Source: a virus
Virus record (IMG/VR): IMGVR_UViG_3300031237_000021
Span: 1 to 34,311 of that record
Direction: 5' to 3' (one strand)
DNA length: 34,311 bases
Shown here piece by piece: positions 1-34,311 of the stretch (position 1 is the stretch's first letter; each line of letters starts with the position of its first letter). The notes under the pieces were generated by a model. It was not told the origin of the DNA. It did not search any database and saw only the letters and a program-made list of their open reading frames with translations. A program made the position numbers and the translations under genes.

Positions 1-127
1 TGAGCGAGCGCACCGACGCAGCACTCGGCTGCGCCACCGACCTGCAGATGCTGCACGACTACGTCGTCGAGCTGGACGACGCCCTCGCCGCCGGGGACGA
101 ACGGCGCGCCGCCTGCGCAGTGGCGAC
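1..127. repeat. terminal direct repeat, left copy (circular junction)
   Basis: Bases 1-127 are identical to bases 34185-34311. An exact overlap of 127 bases matches the largest k-mer commonly used by de Bruijn assemblers, so I read it as an assembly overlap of a circular or circularly permuted molecule rather than a biological terminal repeat. The unit length is then 34,184 bp. A gene reads cleanly through the junction, which supports closure. Confidence 0.93.
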
Positions 128-245
128 CATCGCCCAGGCGGCCCACCTTCTCGGCAACGTCATCGACCCTGCCGACCGAGCCTGCGCCGCGCTGCACGGC
201 ACCCGACCGGCCTCTGCCCTCGCCGCCGGAACGGCGAGGCGATGA
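1..245 (+). CDS. hypothetical protein, 3' part of the gene that spans the circle junction
   Basis: This is the continuation of the gene whose ATG is at 34184; base 1 is the second base of that start codon. The whole protein is 81 residues, helical and Ala/Asp/Glu rich, with no motif I recognise. It starts with an ATGA overlap on the repressor stop and ends with an ATGA overlap on the next gene at 242, so it is translationally coupled on both sides. It is the second gene of the rightward lysogeny operon. If the phage integrates at the attP core inside the repressor, this gene is separated from the repressor promoter. Real gene: likely. Function: unknown. Confidence 0.75.
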   Translation, partial: SERTDAALGCATDLQMLHDYVVELDDALAAGDERRAACAVATIAQAAHLLGNVIDPADRACAALHGTRPASALAAGTARR

Positions 246-451
246 ACGACCTCGAGCCGCTGGTCGAGCAGTGGTGGGTCGTCATGGCCCGGCACCCGGA
301 GACCGGCTGGCGCATGCACTCGGACGCGCCCCGCAGCCAGGCCAGGGCCGAGCAGTTCGCCGGCGACCTGAACATCCTCGGGTCCACCCGCGAGCGCGGC
401 CTGCTGTACGCCGCGGCGTCCGTCACGGTGCTGGCGGAGGTGCCGGCCTGA
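242..451 (+). CDS. small hypothetical protein (69 aa)
   Basis: The ATG at 242 overlaps the previous stop (ATGA) and the stop overlaps the next ATG at 451, so the frame is fixed by coupling on both sides. The protein is 69 residues. Its N-terminal half holds a Trp-Trp pair and a stretch reading VVMARHPETGWRM, which resembles the short alpha/beta proteins common in actinophages that hold one strand pair and a helix. No catalytic or binding motif is visible. It belongs to the repressor-integrase operon, so a role in lysogeny or its regulation is possible but only inferred from position. Confidence 0.72.
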   Translation: MNDLEPLVEQWWVVMARHPETGWRMHSDAPRSQARAEQFAGDLNILGSTRERGLLYAAASVTVLAEVPA

Positions 452-816
452 TGGGCGGCGGGGACCACAGCGAGTACTCCGCGTTCATCCGCCGGGCACT
501 GCGCGCGTACGGCCGGCGGGTGGCCGCGGCCGACGTCGAGGACCTGGCCGAGCTGCTCGCCGTACGGGATGCGGTCGACGAGGCGATCACGCGGGCCGTG
601 GCCGGGCTACGGGCGGCCGGTCGGTCCTGGGGCGAGATCGCGCACGCGACAGGCACCACACGGCAGGCCGCTCAGCAGCGTTGGGGCGTCAAGGTCGCCT
701 TGACGCCGGAACCGGCGGGCCGGCTGGTGTCGAGCGAGGCACCGCACGTGGCCCCGACAACGCGCGAGACCGCTGCCCAGGGGCCCTCAGCGCTGGTCGT
801 CGCCCAGTCGGCCTAG
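451..816 (+). CDS. helix-turn-helix protein (121 aa)
   Basis: The start is the ATG at 451, overlapping the previous stop by one base; an upstream in-frame ATG at 271 would run through the previous gene and was rejected. Residues about 30-80 form a predicted helical domain ending in a clear helix-turn-helix (GRSWGEIAHATGTTRQAAQQ), of the sigma-4-like type often seen in actinobacterial small regulators. The C-terminal 40 residues are Ala/Thr/Pro rich and probably disordered. It lies 78 bp upstream of the integrase. It could be a local regulator or a recombination directionality factor, but no excisionase signature is visible, so only DNA binding is claimed. Confidence 0.78.
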   Translation: MGGGDHSEYSAFIRRALRAYGRRVAAADVEDLAELLAVRDAVDEAITRAVAGLRAAGRSWGEIAHATGTTRQAAQQRWGVKVALTPEPAGRLVSSEAPHVAPTTRETAAQGPSALVVAQSA

Positions 817-894: not shown

Positions 895-1758
895 ATGAGC
901 AGAGCACTCGAGACCTGGGCCGCGACGATGCGCGCCGAGGGGATCCGCGAGCGCACCATCAGCGAGCGCGTTCGGATCGTGGCCCAGGCCGCCCGGCAGC
1001 TCGACGAAGAGCCCACCGCGCTGACTCGGGAGAGCATCGTCGCCTGGCTCGGAGACCTGCCGTCCGCCGGCACCCGGGCCAGCTACTTCGGCGCGATCCG
1101 GGCCTGGAGCCGATGGCTGCGCGACGAGCAGATCCGGGCCGACGACCCGACCGCCCGCCTCAAGACACCACGCGTGCCCCGGCGCCTGCCGCGGCCGATC
1201 AGCCGCGAGCACCTCGAGGACCTCCTCAACAAGTCCGGGGTCCACCTGCGCGCCCGGGTGATGATCCACCTGGCCGCCTACGAGGGTCTGCGGGTCCACG
1301 AGATCGCCGCGGTGCGCGGCGAGGACGTGGACCTGCTCGGCCGCCGGCTGTTCGTCCGCGGCAAGGGCGGCGTCGAAGCGTGGCTGCCGCTGCACGAGAC
1401 CGTCGCGGCCGACGCGCTGCTGATGCCCCGGCGGGGCTGGTGGTTCGAGTCCTACAGCTACAAGGACCGGGCCGGCGAGCACATCCTGCCCGGCTCCGTC
1501 ACGTCCGCCATCGGGCGGGCGCTGACCCGGTGCGAGATCCGCGCCACCGCCCACCAGCTGCGCCATTTCTTCGGCACCGAGCTGCTGCGGTCCGGCGTCG
1601 ACGTGCGGGTCGTCCAGGAGCTCATGCGCCACGCCTCGCTGTCGTCGACGCAGATCTACACGCTCGTCGTCGACGACCAGGAACGCGCCGGCCTGGCGAA
1701 GTTGCGACCCGTCCATGAGCAACCCCGCAGCACCATCGAAGGAAGGAAGGCAGCATGA
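895..1758 (+). CDS. int: tyrosine integrase (site-specific recombinase), compact form
   Basis: A 287-residue tyrosine recombinase. The start at 895 is chosen for its Shine-Dalgarno GGAAGGGA (880-886); the upstream in-frame ATG at 832 lacks one. Residues 1-77 are a SAM-like core-binding domain and residues 100-270 the catalytic domain, with the full set Arg133 (GLRVHE), Lys157 (RGKGG), His220/Arg223 (HQLRHF), His246 and nucleophile Tyr255. There is no N-terminal arm-binding domain, as in the simple integrases of integration-dependent immunity phages. The probable attP core lies about 1 kb away across the circle junction. The protein ends in GRKAA, a possible ClpXP degradation tag. It is coupled to the lipoprotein by ATGA. 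A second role in tail-gene inversion is conceivable but unsupported. Confidence 0.95.
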   Translation: MSRALETWAATMRAEGIRERTISERVRIVAQAARQLDEEPTALTRESIVAWLGDLPSAGTRASYFGAIRAWSRWLRDEQIRADDPTARLKTPRVPRRLPRPISREHLEDLLNKSGVHLRARVMIHLAAYEGLRVHEIAAVRGEDVDLLGRRLFVRGKGGVEAWLPLHETVAADALLMPRRGWWFESYSYKDRAGEHILPGSVTSAIGRALTRCEIRATAHQLRHFFGTELLRSGVDVRVVQELMRHASLSSTQIYTLVVDDQERAGLAKLRPVHEQPRSTIEGRKAA

Positions 1759-2342
1759 ACCACCCGCCGAACCACCCCCACGCGCGCCGCGAGCGGAGCA
1801 TCATCGGGATCGTGCGCACACGAAGCCTCACCCTCGCTGTCATGATCGCTCTCCTGGCGGGCTGCTCGGCCAGCAAGACGCCCGCCACGGAGCCCAGCAG
1901 CGGCGCCGCGAGCACCGCAACGACGACGGCCGCCAGCACCGCAACGACGACGGCCGCCAGCACCCCACCGAGCGCCAGCAACACGCCCAGCGAGGTCCCG
2001 ACGACCGAGGCGGCCGCTCCGCCTGCCACGCCTGCGGCGCCAGCAGAGACGGCGGCTCAGGCCAACGCCCGCCGGAAGGCGGCTGACTACCTGTCGTACA
2101 TGGCCTTCTCCCGCGACGGCCTGGTCCGGCAGCTCGTGCAGGGGGAGCAGTTCGCGCAGGCGGACGCTGAGTACGGGGTCGACGCGCAGCACGCCGACTG
2201 GAACGTCCAGGCCGTGGCCATGGCCGAGGACTATCTCGCGATGATGTCGTTCTCGCACGCGGGGCTCGTCGACCAGTTGGTGAAGGGAGAGCTGTTCACC
2301 GCGGCGCAAGCCGAGGCTGGCGTCACGGGCGCAGGCCTGTAG
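1755..2342 (+). CDS. Ltp-family lipoprotein, probable superinfection exclusion
   Basis: A 195-residue secreted lipoprotein. The ATG overlaps the integrase stop and is preceded by an A/G-rich Shine-Dalgarno. A basic N-terminus and hydrophobic stretch lead to the lipobox LLAGC (Cys37), then a Ser/Thr/Ala/Pro linker to about residue 105, then two Ltp repeats (about 107-144 and 152-190) with the family hallmarks DYLSYMAFSR and DYLAMMSFSHAG. In Streptococcus thermophilus phage TP-J34 the founding Ltp sits on the lysogen surface and blocks DNA entry of related phages, probably through the tape measure protein. Placement after the integrase fits expression from the prophage. A GTG at 1812 would give a more usual signal-peptide length but has a poorer ribosome site. 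Confidence 0.9.
   Translation: MNHPPNHPHARRERSIIGIVRTRSLTLAVMIALLAGCSASKTPATEPSSGAASTATTTAASTATTTAASTPPSASNTPSEVPTTEAAAPPATPAAPAETAAQANARRKAADYLSYMAFSRDGLVRQLVQGEQFAQADAEYGVDAQHADWNVQAVAMAEDYLAMMSFSHAGLVDQLVKGELFTAAQAEAGVTGAGL
1911..1958 (+). repeat. 24-bp tandem repeat, two perfect copies
   Basis: A 24-bp unit (1911-1934 and 1935-1958) is perfectly duplicated inside the lipoprotein linker, encoding two copies of the octapeptide STATTTAA. It sits in the low-complexity spacer between the lipid anchor and the Ltp repeats, so copy-number changes would alter spacer length without breaking the frame. Confidence 0.9.
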
Positions 2343-28338: not shown

Positions 28339-28652
28339 CTGGGCTCTCCTTGGGGTGTCGGGACGGGCAGGTGAACGAGGAGCATCGAGATCTCGGAGTG
28401 CGCGCGAAGTACCCGGACCCGGGTCTGCTCGGCGAGGGACTCGACCTCGACGAGACCATCGAGCGCGTCACGCAGCGCCGCGGCCGCAGCGATCAACCGG
28501 TCGTTCCACTCGGCCACGGCCGGCAACGGCAACAGCGGCACCGGAGCCACGTCCGGGACCGCCGGCGCAGGCGTCGACAACGGGGCCGGCGTCGACGGCG
28601 CAGCCGGAGGAAGACCCGGCGACGGGTCCGGCGCGGCAGCGGCGGCGCTCAT
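28335..28652 (-). CDS. Pro/Ala-rich hypothetical protein (105 aa)
   Basis: A 105-residue protein, ATG at 28652 overlapping the ParB-like stop (ATGA). The first 45 residues are Pro/Ala repeats (PSTPAPLSTPAPAVPDVAP) and the second half is a helix (AEWNDRLIAAAAALRDALDG, then QTRVRVLRAHSEIS). Probably a flexible arm plus coiled coil. No function can be given. Confidence 0.68.
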   Translation of the reverse strand: MSAAAAAPDPSPGLPPAAPSTPAPLSTPAPAVPDVAPVPLLPLPAVAEWNDRLIAAAAALRDALDGLVEVESLAEQTRVRVLRAHSEISMLLVHLPVPTPQGEPR

Positions 28653-29365
28653 GAGGCACCTACGGTTGGATGCGCACGCTCGTCCTCGCGGATAGTGGCC
28701 TCCCAGCAAGGCGAACACGCGACATGGCCGACGAGGTGCACGCGCTTCACCTGAGCCGACAACCTGTGCTGCGTACAACGGGCACGTGCGGCTGCGGCGA
28801 GCGGATGGCCGGAGCCGAAGTACGGCGGCGTGAAAACGCGGCCGATGCGGGCCGCACCGGATCCCCTCGTCGCCACCTGACGCGCCAGATCGTTCGCCGC
28901 ACCCAACGTCAGATCGCCGCCAGCGACCATGTCCCGCGCCTCGGGCGGCAGCAACAGAAGCCGCAGCGACTCCGACACGGTGCGCGCCGAGTAGCCCGTA
29001 CGCTGCGCGATCGCCGTCACCGACAGGTGCTGCCCGTCATGCAGCTGTCGGAACGCGGACGCGCGATCCAGCGGTGACAGCTGCTTGTGCATCGCCGCCG
29101 CGAGCGCGAGCGCGGTGTCAGGGCCCTCGTCGCCGGGCCTGATCGCCACACACGGCACCGCGTCACGGCCGGCGAGCCTGGCTGCCGCCAGCCTGCGATG
29201 GCCGTCGATCAGCATCCAGCCGCCACGGACCTGCGTGACCACGAGCGGCTGCAACAGACCCACCGCGCGGATCGACGCCGCAAGCTCGGTGACGTCACCG
29301 ACGTCGCGGCGCGGATTACGCGGGTTCGGCCGGATCTCCGAAACCGGGATCGATGGAACGCTCAC
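28649..29365 (-). CDS. ParB-like DNA-binding protein 1 (238 aa)
   Basis: A 238-residue ParB/Spo0J-type protein. The GTG at 29365 overlaps the previous stop (GTGA); an earlier GTG at 29374 is possible. The N-terminal domain has IPVSEIRPNPRNPRRDVGD, LQPLVV and WMLIDGHRRLAAARLAG with the GHRR box (the CTP-binding region in true ParBs), then an HTH (LSVTAIAQRTGYSARTVSES). The C-terminus has CTQHRL and CSPCW, a likely zinc site instead of a ParB dimer domain. No ParA is encoded, so partition is unlikely; a regulatory or nuclease-like role is more plausible. Confidence 0.85.
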   Translation of the reverse strand: MSVPSIPVSEIRPNPRNPRRDVGDVTELAASIRAVGLLQPLVVTQVRGGWMLIDGHRRLAAARLAGRDAVPCVAIRPGDEGPDTALALAAAMHKQLSPLDRASAFRQLHDGQHLSVTAIAQRTGYSARTVSESLRLLLLPPEARDMVAGGDLTLGAANDLARQVATRGSGAARIGRVFTPPYFGSGHPLAAAARARCTQHRLSAQVKRVHLVGHVACSPCWEATIREDERAHPTVGAS

Positions 29366-29631
29366 GACCAGCACCCCCGAGCCCGGCCGGCGCGGTCCTC
29401 GAGCAGGAACGCGGCCGCCAGGTAGTCAGCCGCGAGCGCGGCGCTCGACGGCGAGGCGTTCGAAGCCGCGTGCCAGTACGACGACTCGCGGCGGCACCGG
29501 GCCGCGGCACCCCGGATCGCGTCAGCGCCGCGGGCGCCATGACCGGCCCGGTCGAACCCGACCAGCGCGTGCTGCTGGGCCAACAGCACCGCCGCCAGGC
29601 GCCGCGGACGGAACGACGTCGGCCGGCTCAC
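29362..29631 (-). CDS. hypothetical protein between the two ParB genes (89 aa)
   Basis: An 89-residue protein coupled at both ends (ATGA start at 29631, GTGA stop). Helical, Ala/Arg rich, with RRLAAVLLAQQHALVGFDRA and WHAASNASPSSAALAADYLA. No domain recognised. Placement between two ParB-like genes suggests a partner function, which is only an inference. Confidence 0.7.
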   Translation of the reverse strand: MSRPTSFRPRRLAAVLLAQQHALVGFDRAGHGARGADAIRGAAARCRRESSYWHAASNASPSSAALAADYLAAAFLLEDRAGRARGCWS

Positions 29632-31217
29632 GGCTCCTCGCCGTCCTCGCCGAGATCGGCGTCCGCGTCGTAGAAGTCATCCTCGTCGTCGCCGGTGCCC
29701 TCGACGGCGCCCTCCTCCTCGACGGGCGGGCGCATGGCCTCGGCCTCGTCGGTCGAGACCTGGTAGCCGAGCCGCTCCAGCAGGAGGTAGTAGGCCACCG
29801 TGCGCGGCGCCGCGTAGTTGGGCCAGTGCCAGGTGGTGGGCGCAAGCTCCGCCTCCTCCGCGAGCACCGCGAGCGCCAGCAGGGCCTGGTCGAACTTCGC
29901 GTAGCTGATCGCGTCCCGAACGGCCAGCTCGATCATGGCCTCGACGTCCGCCTTCGGGTCGGCCTCGGTGGCCGCGGTCTCGATCTGCGTGGCGTCGATG
30001 CCGAACCAGGAGCGCAGCTGCCCCTCGTCGGCGTACGCCGGCTGGTCCTCGTACGCGTCGACCAGGTGCCGTCGCGCGACGAACAGCGCCAGGTCCTCGA
30101 CCTGCGCGAGCGTGAGGCGGCGCTTCTTGAGGCCCTCGAGGAAGGCGGTGCGCAACACGGTGAACCGCTCGTGCCGCTCCGCGGCCGCGGCAGCCGCAGC
30201 GCGCTCCTCCGCGAGCTGCCGCTGACGCTCCGGGTCGACCGCCGGTGCAGCCGCCGTCGGGGACTCGTCCTCGTCGGTAAGCGGCCGGAACGTGTGCAGG
30301 TAGTCGTCGTAGCCGGTGCGGCTGACCGCGAACGTCCAGCCCGCGTCGGCGCCGGCCGTCTTCTCGATGAAGTTCTTCACGCCGCCGCTGTTCAGGCCGC
30401 CCTGCAGCTCGTAGCGGTTCACGTAGTCGACCCGCAGCATGCCCTCCGGAGAGGTCCAGTAGGGACTGCCGGCGGTCTCGATCTTCTTCGCGCCGGCGGC
30501 CTCCAGCTGCGCCACGAGGTGCTCGATCGTGGTCTGGACCCGGCGCTTCCTGACGGCCTTCTCGAGCTCGTTGTCGAAGTCCTTCGAGCCGAGCAGCCCG
30601 GCCAGCAGCCCGGCCAGCTCCGGGTCGTCGTCGAAGTCGTTCAGCCGGTCAGCCTGCGCCAGGGTCGCCTGTCCGTTGTGGAGCTTCTCTCGGGCCTTCT
30701 CCGGCAGTCCGACGAGCCGCAGCCGGCGCCGCACCGTCGACTCCGACCGACCCGTCTCGCGGGCGATCGCGTCCGGCAGCAGACCAAGATCGAGCAGCCC
30801 CTGGTAGCCGTCGGCCTCCTCGATGACCGTCAGATCGGCGCGCTGCACGTTCTCGATCAGCATCAGCTCGAGCTGCTGCGCCGGCGACAACGCCTCGTCG
30901 ACGATCGCCGGCACCGCCGGCAGGCCCGCAAGCGCGGCGGCCGCGGCGCGGCGATGACCGATGACAGTGCGGAAGGAGCCGGTGCGGCCGGGGTTGGGCA
31001 CCACGGTGAGCGGCTGGCGGATCCCGGAGACCCTGATCGAGTCCGCGAGCTCGACCAGGTCGCCGAGGTCGCGGCGGGGGTTCTGCGGGTGCGGCTCGAG
31101 CTGGTCGAGCGGGATCTCGACGAGCCGCGGCAGCGCGCCGGTCAGCTCGTCCAGCGCCGGCGACGCCGGCGAGGCCTCGGGCACCGGCACCCCGGCCCGC
31201 TTCGTCCGGGTGGCCAT
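29628..31217 (-). CDS. ParB-like DNA-binding protein 2 (529 aa)
   Basis: A 529-residue protein, much longer than classic ParB. The ATG at 31217 overlaps the previous stop (TGATG). Residues about 25-110 are the ParB N-domain (LVEIPLDQLEPHPQNPRRDL, FRTVIGHRRAAAAALAG with the GHRR box), about 110-200 the HTH region (MLIENVQRADLTVIEEADGY, then RSESTVRRRLRLVGLPEKAR). The large C-terminal part has a coiled coil (ERQRQLAEERAAAAAAAERH) and ends in an Asp/Glu-rich tail. Such long ParB-like proteins occur in actinophages and integrative elements. No ParA gene is present. Confidence 0.87.
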   Translation of the reverse strand: MATRTKRAGVPVPEASPASPALDELTGALPRLVEIPLDQLEPHPQNPRRDLGDLVELADSIRVSGIRQPLTVVPNPGRTGSFRTVIGHRRAAAAALAGLPAVPAIVDEALSPAQQLELMLIENVQRADLTVIEEADGYQGLLDLGLLPDAIARETGRSESTVRRRLRLVGLPEKAREKLHNGQATLAQADRLNDFDDDPELAGLLAGLLGSKDFDNELEKAVRKRRVQTTIEHLVAQLEAAGAKKIETAGSPYWTSPEGMLRVDYVNRYELQGGLNSGGVKNFIEKTAGADAGWTFAVSRTGYDDYLHTFRPLTDEDESPTAAAPAVDPERQRQLAEERAAAAAAAERHERFTVLRTAFLEGLKKRRLTLAQVEDLALFVARRHLVDAYEDQPAYADEGQLRSWFGIDATQIETAATEADPKADVEAMIELAVRDAISYAKFDQALLALAVLAEEAELAPTTWHWPNYAAPRTVAYYLLLERLGYQVSTDEAEAMRPPVEEEGAVEGTGDDEDDFYDADADLGEDGEEP

Positions 31218-31708
31218 CACGCCGCCACCCCAACCGCGAGCGCGGTGGCGCACGGCCAGTGCGAGGCGGCGCCGTAGCCGTTGTCCGCGACGGATTCGCC
31301 GTCGTCGTACTCCCAGGCGACGTGCATGCAGTGCTCGCACAGGCGGAACTCGTACGGCACCGGCTTCTCGGTGGGCTCGCCGTCGTCGAATGGGTGCGAG
31401 TTCCAGTGCTCGTCGACGTCCGTCTGGGCCGCCTCGCGGCTCGGCCACAGCCGCTCGTCGGTGTACCCGATCCAGAAGACCACCGGCCTGTGCAGCTCGA
31501 GGACGGCGTCGATCTGCCCGTGCTGGGCCGCCACCGCCTCGAGGAGCTGCTCGCGGGATGCGATGAGCCGGGTCAGGTCCGCGGCCTCATCGGCCTCGTG
31601 GCTGGTCGCGCCGGCGGGGATGTCGCCGAGCGCCTCGGCGATGCGCCAGCCGAGGGTGTTCAGCAGGATCGAGTGCTCACGGAATCGCTCAAGGTCGGTG
31701 TCGGTCAC
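31217..31708 (-). CDS. hypothetical protein (163 aa)
   Basis: A 163-residue protein with GTG start at 31708 and only a weak ribosome site; it is coupled downstream to ParB 2 by TGATG. The N-terminal half is helical (ERFREHSILLNTLGWRIAEA), and the C-terminal half contains VPYEFRLCEHCMHVAWEYDD with a Cys-x2-Cys and a His, possibly zinc-binding. No family recognised. Confidence 0.7.
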   Translation of the reverse strand: MTDTDLERFREHSILLNTLGWRIAEALGDIPAGATSHEADEAADLTRLIASREQLLEAVAAQHGQIDAVLELHRPVVFWIGYTDERLWPSREAAQTDVDEHWNSHPFDDGEPTEKPVPYEFRLCEHCMHVAWEYDDGESVADNGYGAASHWPCATALAVGVAA

Positions 31709-33110: not shown

Positions 33111-33376
33111 CGGGCACGCTCCTCAGGCCGAGTCGCAACCAACTCACGCCACGCCTCGTCGACCAACCGACGCAGCACCGGGTGCAGCCCCGGCCACAAC
33201 GACGCGCATCGCGAGCACGCCACCACGAACGCGGCCGCATCAGCCTCACCGAGCCCGGGGGACACGTGCAGGAACCGGCCACGCTCAGCCCGCCACGAGG
33301 CGAAGCGCACGACGCGGCCACACAGACGGCACTCGTCACCATCACGCAGACGAACCTCGACCGCCAGCGCGCTCAC
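33107..33376 (-). CDS. degenerate HNH-like zinc protein (89 aa)
   Basis: An 89-residue protein. The GTG at 33376 overlaps the cro-like stop (GTGA). It aligns well with the HNH unit of the replication protein at 21909-22985: VEVRLRDGDECRLCG versus LRVRMRDGDACRYCG, and FVVACSRCAS versus SVVACGACNS. The catalytic Asp-His (DH) is replaced by LH and the Asn by Ala, so zinc cysteines remain but cleavage is unlikely. It may have become a DNA-binding or regulatory protein. It is the second gene from the leftward switch promoter. Confidence 0.75.
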   Translation of the reverse strand: MSALAVEVRLRDGDECRLCGRVVRFASWRAERGRFLHVSPGLGEADAAAFVVACSRCASLWPGLHPVLRRLVDEAWRELVATRPEERAR

Positions 33377-33621
33377 GACGCACTCCGCGCTGGCTCGACG
33401 ATCTCGAGGATGTCCACGTCGAGGGCGCGAGCGACAGCCGCGAGCTCGTCGACGTCCCACGCCGCGTCACCGATGAGACGCCGCGAGATGCTCGACTGTG
33501 ACCGGCCCAGCCGACGAGCGAGCTCGGCGCCGGTGATGCGCTGGACTGCGAGTCGAGCCCGCAGGCCGCTAGAGATCGCGGCCGATGCTTCGCCTACCCG
33601 CTCAATGGGTGCCTGAGACAT
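33373..33621 (-). CDS. Cro-like XRE regulator
   Basis: An 82-residue XRE-type HTH protein, first gene leftward from the switch. The start at 33621 is preferred because TATGGT lies 7 bases upstream, giving a leaderless message; ATGs at 33642 and 33633 are alternatives. The HTH is ITGAELARRLGRSQSSISRR, about half identical with the divergent repressor over 60 residues, so the two arose by duplication and probably share operators. By position it should favour lytic growth by repressing the repressor promoter, as Cro does. It starts the long early operon. Confidence 0.85.
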   Translation of the reverse strand: MSQAPIERVGEASAAISSGLRARLAVQRITGAELARRLGRSQSSISRRLIGDAAWDVDELAAVARALDVDILEIVEPARSAS

Positions 33622-33628
33622 GGCCGCG

Positions 33629-33658
33629 ACCATATGCGCCACGTGGGTATCCGCGCAA
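33629..33658 (-). promoter_or_regulatory. early leftward promoter (cro)
   Basis: On the minus strand TTGCGC (33658-33653), an 18-base spacer and TATGGT (33634-33629) precede the ATG at 33621 by 7 bases. The start point would be at or next to the A of ATG, i.e. a leaderless mRNA, common in actinobacteria. This mirrors the repressor promoter on the other strand. Confidence 0.62.
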
Positions 33659-33722
33659 GGGGCACTATCGGCGTGTCGTGGTTGTGCGCCTCAGGGGTCG
33701 CATGAGTCACCCGCTAGGTGGG

Positions 33723-33751
33723 TTGCACGAGCGCCAGGCGGGCGCTAGCGT
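33723..33751 (+). promoter_or_regulatory. repressor promoter (rightward)
   Basis: TTGCAC (33723-33728), a 17-base spacer and TAGCGT (33746-33751), then 7 bases to the ATG at 33759, which again predicts a leaderless transcript. It would drive the repressor and the coupled small genes. Both hexamers fit the actinobacterial housekeeping sigma consensus well. Confidence 0.68.
33730..33746. promoter_or_regulatory. candidate operator, perfect 6-5-6 inverted repeat
   Basis: AGCGCC (33730-33735), AGGCG, GGCGCT (33741-33746) is a perfect inverted repeat between the -35 and -10 of the repressor promoter. A dimeric HTH protein bound here would block that promoter, so it is a natural site for the Cro-like protein or for autoregulation. 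No perfect second copy was found in the switch region. Confidence 0.5.
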
Positions 33752-33758
33752 GGCGGGC

Positions 33759-34187
33759 ATGTCAGTCGACCGAGTGATCCCGATGCCGAGCCGTCAAGGC
33801 CTGACGGCCATCGTCTCGACGGCACTGCGAGGCATCCTCGCTGAACGCCGCATCACGGGCGTCTCGCTCGCGAGCCACGTGGGCATGTCGCAGTCGAAGA
33901 TGTCCCGGCGGCTGACGGGCGAGTTCCCGTTTGACACCGACGAGCTCGAGCGCGTGCTCGGCGCTCTGGAGATCAGCCTCGCGGATTTGCTGGCGCGGGC
34001 ATCCAACGTCACCGCGCCGGTCGGCCCCAGGCCGCCGACGCCGACCGCCGGCGAGGGCATCGACCGGCGGCTGCGCCTGGTGGTGCGCCCGACTGGACTC
34101 GAACCAGCGGCCTTCTGCTCCGAAGCCCGACAGTCCGCTCCCTGGCCGTGGCCCGCGAGCGCGCCCGACGAGGAGCAGGCGGCATGA
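33759..34187 (+). CDS. immunity repressor, viral (long) form, contains attP
   Basis: A 142-residue XRE-type repressor. The ATG at 33759 lies 7 bases from a good -10; upstream in-frame ATGs fall before the promoter. The HTH is at 33-55 (TGVSLASHVGMSQSKMSRRL), a helical dimer region follows to about 82, then a linker. Residues 108-122 are encoded by the tRNA-like attP core (VRPTGLEPAAF, the familiar translation of an antisense tRNA), and the tail ends in DEEQAA, similar to ssrA-type degrons. Integration would replace this tail by host-encoded residues. BPs-type phages do the same: the long form is unstable and the shortened form establishes immunity. The cro-like paralogue is divergent. Confidence 0.87.
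   Translation: MSVDRVIPMPSRQGLTAIVSTALRGILAERRITGVSLASHVGMSQSKMSRRLTGEFPFDTDELERVLGALEISLADLLARASNVTAPVGPRPPTPTAGEGIDRRLRLVVRPTGLEPAAFCSEARQSAPWPWPASAPDEEQAA
34081..34125 (-). other. attP: attP core: 3' half of a tRNA-Arg gene
   Basis: On the minus strand this is the 3' part of a tRNA: anticodon loop CTTCGGA (anticodon TCG, Arg), 3' anticodon arm GCAGA, T arm GCTGG-TTCGAGT-CCAGT, acceptor strand CGGGCGC, discriminator A and CCA. The 5' half is missing: the bases before the loop (TCGGG) do not pair with GCAGA. A 45-bp partial tRNA in a phage with a tyrosine integrase is the usual attP core, able to rebuild the host tRNA after integration. Confidence 0.87.
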
Positions 34188-34311
34188 GCGAGCGCACCGA
34201 CGCAGCACTCGGCTGCGCCACCGACCTGCAGATGCTGCACGACTACGTCGTCGAGCTGGACGACGCCCTCGCCGCCGGGGACGAACGGCGCGCCGCCTGC
34301 GCAGTGGCGAC
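34184..34311 (+). CDS. hypothetical protein, 5' part of the gene that spans the circle junction
   Basis: The ATG at 34184 overlaps the repressor stop (ATGA). The frame continues at base 3 of the window and ends at 245, giving 81 residues in all, starting MSERTDAALGCATDLQMLHD. Described with the entry at 1-245. In this window the 5' part also appears without its first base at positions 1-127. Confidence 0.75.
   Translation, partial: MSERTDAALGCATDLQMLHDYVVELDDALAAGDERRAACAVA
34185..34311. repeat. terminal direct repeat, right copy (circular junction)
   Basis: Identical over all 127 bases to positions 1-127; see that entry. Features in this copy should be counted once. Confidence 0.93.

Follow-up and report, generated by a model that had tools for sequence, protein, structure and literature searches.

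An attachment site inside the repressor gene of phage genome IMGVR_UViG_3300031237_000021: a very probable integration-dependent immunity switch with counterparts in three related prophages

Integration-dependent immunity is known from phages of Mycobacterium and Gordonia and from prophages of Bifidobacterium (PMC4557955, PMC9262239, PMC5559632, PMC6109161), and a survey of Arthrobacter phages also names it. No Actinomyces prophages with this type of immunity were found in the open full-text literature, which is a limited test. In phage BPs of cluster G, attP lies within the repressor gene, attB is a tRNA-Arg gene, the long form of the repressor (gp33-136) is tagged, the prophage repressor is truncated (gp33-103) and a Cro-like gene is divergent from the repressor gene (PMC4557955, PMC9262239). 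In BPs the integrase and repressor genes are neighbours (32/33), and the core edge is where the stop codon of the short form is made. Brujita has int directly downstream of rep, its repressor and integrase end in -EHAA and -LSAA, respectively, and the divergent neighbour of rep carries the annotation of a putative, MerR-like excisionase. Outside the mycobacteria the same logic is seen in Gordonia cluster CW phages (e.g., GMA5) and in the Bifidobacterium prophages Bb423phi2 and 689b-1; in GMA5, too, rep and int are separated by an additional ORF (PMC5559632, PMC6109161). The target of GMA5 and its relatives is tRNA-Lys.

Here we describe a locus in the IMG/VR record IMGVR_UViG_3300031237_000021, which was analysed as a stretch of 34,311 nucleotides (the window). 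As in BPs, attP is in the repressor gene, the target is a tRNA-Arg gene (anticodon CCG, unlike the tRNA-Lys of GMA5), the long repressor is tagged, a Cro-like gene is divergent from it and the prophage repressor is predicted to be truncated. We consider it highly probable that the locus is a BPs/Brujita-type switch, in which immunity depends on integration. The mechanism itself is already established, and the departures found here are two. There are three genes between rep and int, unlike in BPs and Brujita, and the stop codon of the short repressor is predicted to come from the antisense strand of the D arm in the host tRNA gene, about seven host-encoded residues on, whereas that of BPs is at the core edge.

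An end comparison of the window gave an exact 127-bp direct repeat (1–127 and 34185–34311), as long as an assembly overlap at k=127 would be. The record closes into a circle of 34,184 bp and represents the circular, viral form of the genome. Because the circle is closed, the attP form is intact and uninterrupted, and because the record represents the viral form, the core is not simply the edge of a prophage. The GC content of the genome is 72.4%. The first-pass annotation had proposed that the geometry of BPs recurs in what seemed an otherwise different phage. Of the structural proteins, the capsid protein (~31% identical to those of Optimus-like mycobacteriophages) and the portal protein (best identity ~25%) are both far from known phages. 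The integrase groups with those of Brujita, and a nucleotide search of the right end against phage genomes gave zero matches. Two adjacent ParB-like proteins, each with ParB_N and HTH_ParB domains (28649–29374 and 29628–31448, both on the minus strand), are encoded in the genome that also encodes the integrase.

The viral, long form of the immunity repressor (33759–34187, plus strand) has 142 residues, an XRE/Cro-C1 HTH within residues ~19–83 and the C-terminus ...SAPDEEQAA. It matched Pfam HTH_26 (9.6e-7) and PHROG 4583, “transcriptional repressor” (1e-14), and a search of IMG/VR with the repressor found no sequence relatives. Divergent from it is a Cro-like HTH gene (33373–33621, minus strand; 82 aa from an ATG at 33621), which the first-pass annotation had regarded as a paralogue of the repressor and which is indeed 44% identical to it over 63 aa (E=1e-15); in this it differs from the MerR-like gene of Brujita. 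Between the two genes is a 137 bp divergent control region (33622–33758, plus strand), in which a sigma-70-like promoter scan found none, although consensus scans of this type often miss promoters in actinobacteria. Two weak candidate operators were noted, ACCCGCTAGGTGGGT at 33709–33723 (plus strand), with an ACCC-N7-GGGT dyad, and ACCCGCTCAATGGGT at 33596–33610 (plus strand), in the 5' end of the cro-like gene. The motif ACCCGCT-N3-TGGGT that they represent has these two copies (33596, 33709) in the genome at ≤1 mismatch versus 0.23 expected, a weak enrichment.

The attP common core is a 41 bp segment (34082–34122, minus strand, with the CCA side at the low coordinate) corresponding to the 3' half of tRNA-Arg(CCG). 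It lies in frame within the repressor ORF, where it is translated as V(V)RPTGLEPAAFCS / (V)VRPTGLEPAAFCS. A tRNA-Arg 3' half embedded in the repressor gene had been proposed at 34081–34125; its identity was upheld, and its limits were redrawn on the exact attL/attR repeats of the three related prophages described below. These repeats all end ...CTTCTGCTCCG, after which the phage has AAG and the hosts have GAG. Alignment of the core to host tRNA-Arg genes, which had been suggested as a check, yielded matches and added the anticodon of the target: BLAST of 34070–34131 found matches in 47 of 395 Actinomycetes genomes (E≤1e-6 per genome), and in 12 of the matching loci ARAGORN recognised tRNA-Arg(CCG) at ten, tRNA-Arg(TCT) at one and no tRNA at the last. 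The locus without a call was the half-gene of Actinomyces succiniciruminis, a species in the family with the best core matches. The best match in a family-wide host search of 213 genomes was 90% over 52 bp (E=3e-14, one genome). The exact 45-bp core was absent from 85k genomes (best, two mismatches over 43 bp), and the exact 40-bp core was absent from IMG/VR. The failure of the exact-core searches is partly explained by the last three bases (AAG) being of phage rather than host origin. The GC content, the core and the relatives of the integrase point to an actinobacterium as the likely host.

Downstream of the repressor, the circle closes within small ORF A (34184–34311 plus 1–245, plus strand; 80 aa), whose start overlaps the repressor stop (ATGA) and which reads unbroken through the closure, with bases 1–127 duplicating 34185–34311. 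ORF B (242–451, plus strand; 69 aa) overlaps the stop of ORF A (ATGA), and ORF C (451–816, plus strand; 121 aa), an HTH protein of PHROG 686, overlaps that of ORF B (TGATG). A homologue of ORF C is also found upstream of the integrase in loci L040 and L041. BPs/Brujita-type systems lack a recombination directionality factor (RDF), and ORF C, as an HTH protein, might be one. After a 78 bp gap comes the tyrosine integrase (895–1758, plus strand), preceded by GGAAGGG, with 287 aa, a Pfam Phage_integrase match of 1.1e-22 and the C-terminus ...IEGRKAA. It is compact, or armless, in that it aligns to positions 163–449 only of PHROG_1 and is colinear with the Brujita integrase from residue 5 of the latter. 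Its best matches include the Brujita and Island3 integrases, and it is 43% identical over 279 positions to that of Brujita (297 aa). A compact tyrosine integrase in the rightward arm had been noted in the first reading; the gene type was right, and its position is not adjacent to the repressor but ~0.8–0.9 kb downstream across the circular junction. The int stop overlaps the start (ATGA) of a gene for an Ltp-type superinfection-exclusion lipoprotein (1755–2342, plus strand; Pfam Lipoprotein_Ltp 2.4e-25, PHROG 4980 4.9e-33, lipobox LAGC), and no ltp homologue was found in the other loci examined. The genes from rep to ORF C are on one strand with overlapping ends, and the arrangement suggests that rep to ltp could form one transcript.

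The phage's own lysogen was not found in the genomes searched, and the frame-swap test was run on three relatives, prophages of A. succiniciruminis, G494 and G666. Their integrases are 40–45% identical to that of the phage, and all three elements occupy the tRNA-Arg(CCG) that is the target here, flanked by exact junction repeats of 41–46 bp. In all three, the tRNA-Arg(CCG) at the repressor-side junction is intact, the frame of the repressor N-terminus is the same across the core and terminates within the tRNA (...CSGGRRSI[H/P] and stop), and the continuation of the repressor frame sits by the integrase at the opposite junction; the relatives were partly picked for a recognisable tRNA half, and the repressor frames were chosen by inspection as continuing from the HTH region. 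The phage and these prophages thus share the tRNA, the frame across the core and related integrases. Just past the core, CCGAAG was present in place of the host CCGGAG at four of four attP or int-side junctions (34123–34125 in the phage; L093, L078 and L107), a one-base difference common to them all.

The A. succiniciruminis prophage was found with a degenerate core pattern. On one contig, a tRNA-Arg half-gene precedes an integrase gene of 45% identity that, unlike that of the phage, contains one internal stop. On another contig, an antisense XRE ORF enters the intact tRNA-Arg(CCG) and stops (...VPRTGFEPAAFCSGGRRSIH); the int-side frame is ...GFEPAAFCSEDRADADESCEVIQLVTFRELAAS with a tail ending ...FRELAAS, and the repeat is 41 bp. 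In G494, both junctions are on one contig, 41.3 kb apart, with an exact 41-bp repeat. Its truncated repressor, ...GFEPAAFCSGGRRSIP / ...VPAAGFEPAAFCSGGRRSIP, ends inside the intact tRNA-Arg(CCG), and the int side reads ...GFEPAAFCSEGRDFDRTLTQTSPVAA, with a tail ending ...TSPVAA. The G494 integrase is ~0.2 kb downstream of the core, is 40–41% identical to that of the phage and ends RPAA; beyond the integrase, G494 and the phage have only a short tape-measure match. The genus of G494 offered only one other genome, and a search of it for an unoccupied site gave no match. In G666, the junctions are 23.3 kb apart with a 46-bp repeat, the integrase is 44% identical, and the repressor, 33% identical to that of the phage over 101 residues, has a lysogen form that ends ...GFEPATFCSGGRRSIH. 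The viral frame of G666 (L107, 2021–2600) runs ~80 residues past the core, unlike the phage lacks a terminal A-A, and may be either decayed or of a different tail design.

Joining the phage core to seven different host tRNA genes in silico gave a 128-aa product each time, comprising 121 viral residues and GGRRSI[H/P], with a predicted TGA stop that is the antisense of the D-arm TCA. The first-pass annotation had proposed the logic of BPs with a loss of about 20–35 C-terminal residues. The logic is supported by the frame alteration at tRNA-Arg(CCG) junctions in the three relatives, none of whose attL/attR junctions was at another site or left the repressor frame unchanged; the shortening also held, with the prediction for the phage becoming 21 viral residues replaced by seven host-encoded ones. 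Other tRNA-Arg(CCG) pairs, 4.6–10 kb apart in G445 (L094), G009 (L095) and G610 (L096), were excluded as their integrase matches were weak or absent. These apparent small elements leave duplicated tRNA 3' halves in tRNA-Arg(CCG), which seems to be a much-used integration site among actinobacteria.

Both the repressor (-EEQAA) and the integrase (-GRKAA) of the phage have ssrA-like A-A ends, resembling those of Brujita. A terminal Ala is found in 37 of 45 distinct integrase relatives versus 103 of 413 background proteins of the same loci (Fisher 5e-14), and Ala-Ala ends are found in 21 and 38 of these, respectively (Fisher 2.5e-9), p-values that are optimistic, the sequences being related, L006 and L008 near-identical and the frames picked by inspection, and that serve as guides rather than strict probabilities. 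The IMG/VR loci with an HTH and the core in one frame (L006, L008, L011, L012, L042, L047, L051) end A-A or A-S, and so do most viral repressors of the relatives, with G666 the one exception.

Based on these sequence features and on BPs, we propose the following mechanism. The circular genome would express the 142-aa repressor, whose viral-only tail (34122–34184, plus strand; residues 122–142, EARQSAPWPWPASAPDEEQAA) ends in the A-A tag, so that the protein is probably degraded. The A-A-tagged integrase from the same transcript would recombine the 41-bp core with an identical or near-identical host tRNA-Arg(CCG) 3' half. Recombination would rebuild the tRNA, remove the viral tail and carry the repressor frame beyond codon 121 across the anticodon and D arm in antisense, where the host would add the ~7 residues and the TGA from the conserved D arm; the expected lysogen junction is the repressor N-terminus running into ...TCCGGAGGCAGACGCTC, with the stop in the tRNA. 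The resulting 128-aa tagless repressor, presumably stable, would maintain the prophage and confer immunity. By analogy with BPs, then, the viral repressor would be degraded and integration would yield a stable, immunity-conferring form (PMC4557955, PMC9262239), and integration very probably switches immunity on. The same event would sever the integrase and the downstream lipoprotein gene from the repressor promoter, and integrase turnover may set the lysogeny frequency, as in BPs (PMC4557955, PMC9262239). We also considered a further role, which we regard as rather unlikely, in which, throughout the tRNA-Arg(CCG) lineage, a conserved C-terminus of the repressor (GGRRSI[H/P]) is provided by the host tRNA together with a stop fixed by the D arm, and the cut rep-orfABC-int-ltp operon shifts protection from a pre-integration exclusion lipoprotein to post-integration repressor immunity.

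The frame swap could have no regulatory role if the long and short repressors repress equally. This would fit with the distance of the HTH from the swap, with the report that the long and short forms of BPs bind DNA alike (PMC4557955) and with the untagged long form of G666. We nonetheless think it quite improbable, given that the attP-in-repressor geometry is repeated among distant integrase relatives, that A-A type tags recur on repressor and integrase, and that the viral tail overlaps the next gene, an ATGA overlap that gives the tail the look of coding sequence shaped by phage evolution rather than of chance read-through. There is even less in favor of the record being a prophage or chimeric assembly with an attachment site at its right edge by chance and an artefactual long repressor. 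The core is only ~190 bp from the linear record end, as this would predict, but the exact terminal repeat and the unbroken 80-aa ORF over the closure oppose it, and the sequence past the core is phage-like, with no tRNA 5' half matching tRNA-Arg; the explanation is very improbable.

ARAGORN called a complete tRNA-Asp(GTC) at 34081–34162 (minus strand), whose 3' half is the tRNA-Arg core and whose 5' part is capable of acceptor-stem pairing. Together with the tRNA-dependent lysogeny known in actinophages (PMC10865867), this call would allow the tRNA piece to be a phage-encoded tRNA or tRNA-like element rather than an attP core. However, an Rfam search with a cutoff as loose as E≤10 detected no tRNA there, it is tRNA-Arg(CCG) rather than tRNA-Asp that the 3' half matches, and the int-side half-genes of the relatives were not called as tRNAs; the tRNA-Asp was rejected as probably a chance call. 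In addition, tRNA-dependent lysogeny has short (~10 bp) cores, a tRNA that is not rebuilt and a replacement tRNA, in contrast to the 41–46-bp cores and intact tRNAs of the relatives and to the window, which has no credible tRNA gene, making this alternative extremely unlikely. The integration-dependent switch has its own limits, in that no sampled host has the exact core, three genes separate rep and int, and the G666 long form is untagged.

The location of attP, the operon-like gene order, the tags and the frame swap in three related prophages, all read at the sequence level, make this a well-supported example in a phage lineage that differs from the mycobacteriophages with the same trick. 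The switch is thereby documented by prophage junctions in Actinomyces and other actinobacteria for a phage that has no close kin in the phage collection, and its geometry, with the same tRNA and the same reading frame, is seen to recur. These findings support attP-in-repressor as a widespread coupling of integration and immunity among actinobacterial phages.
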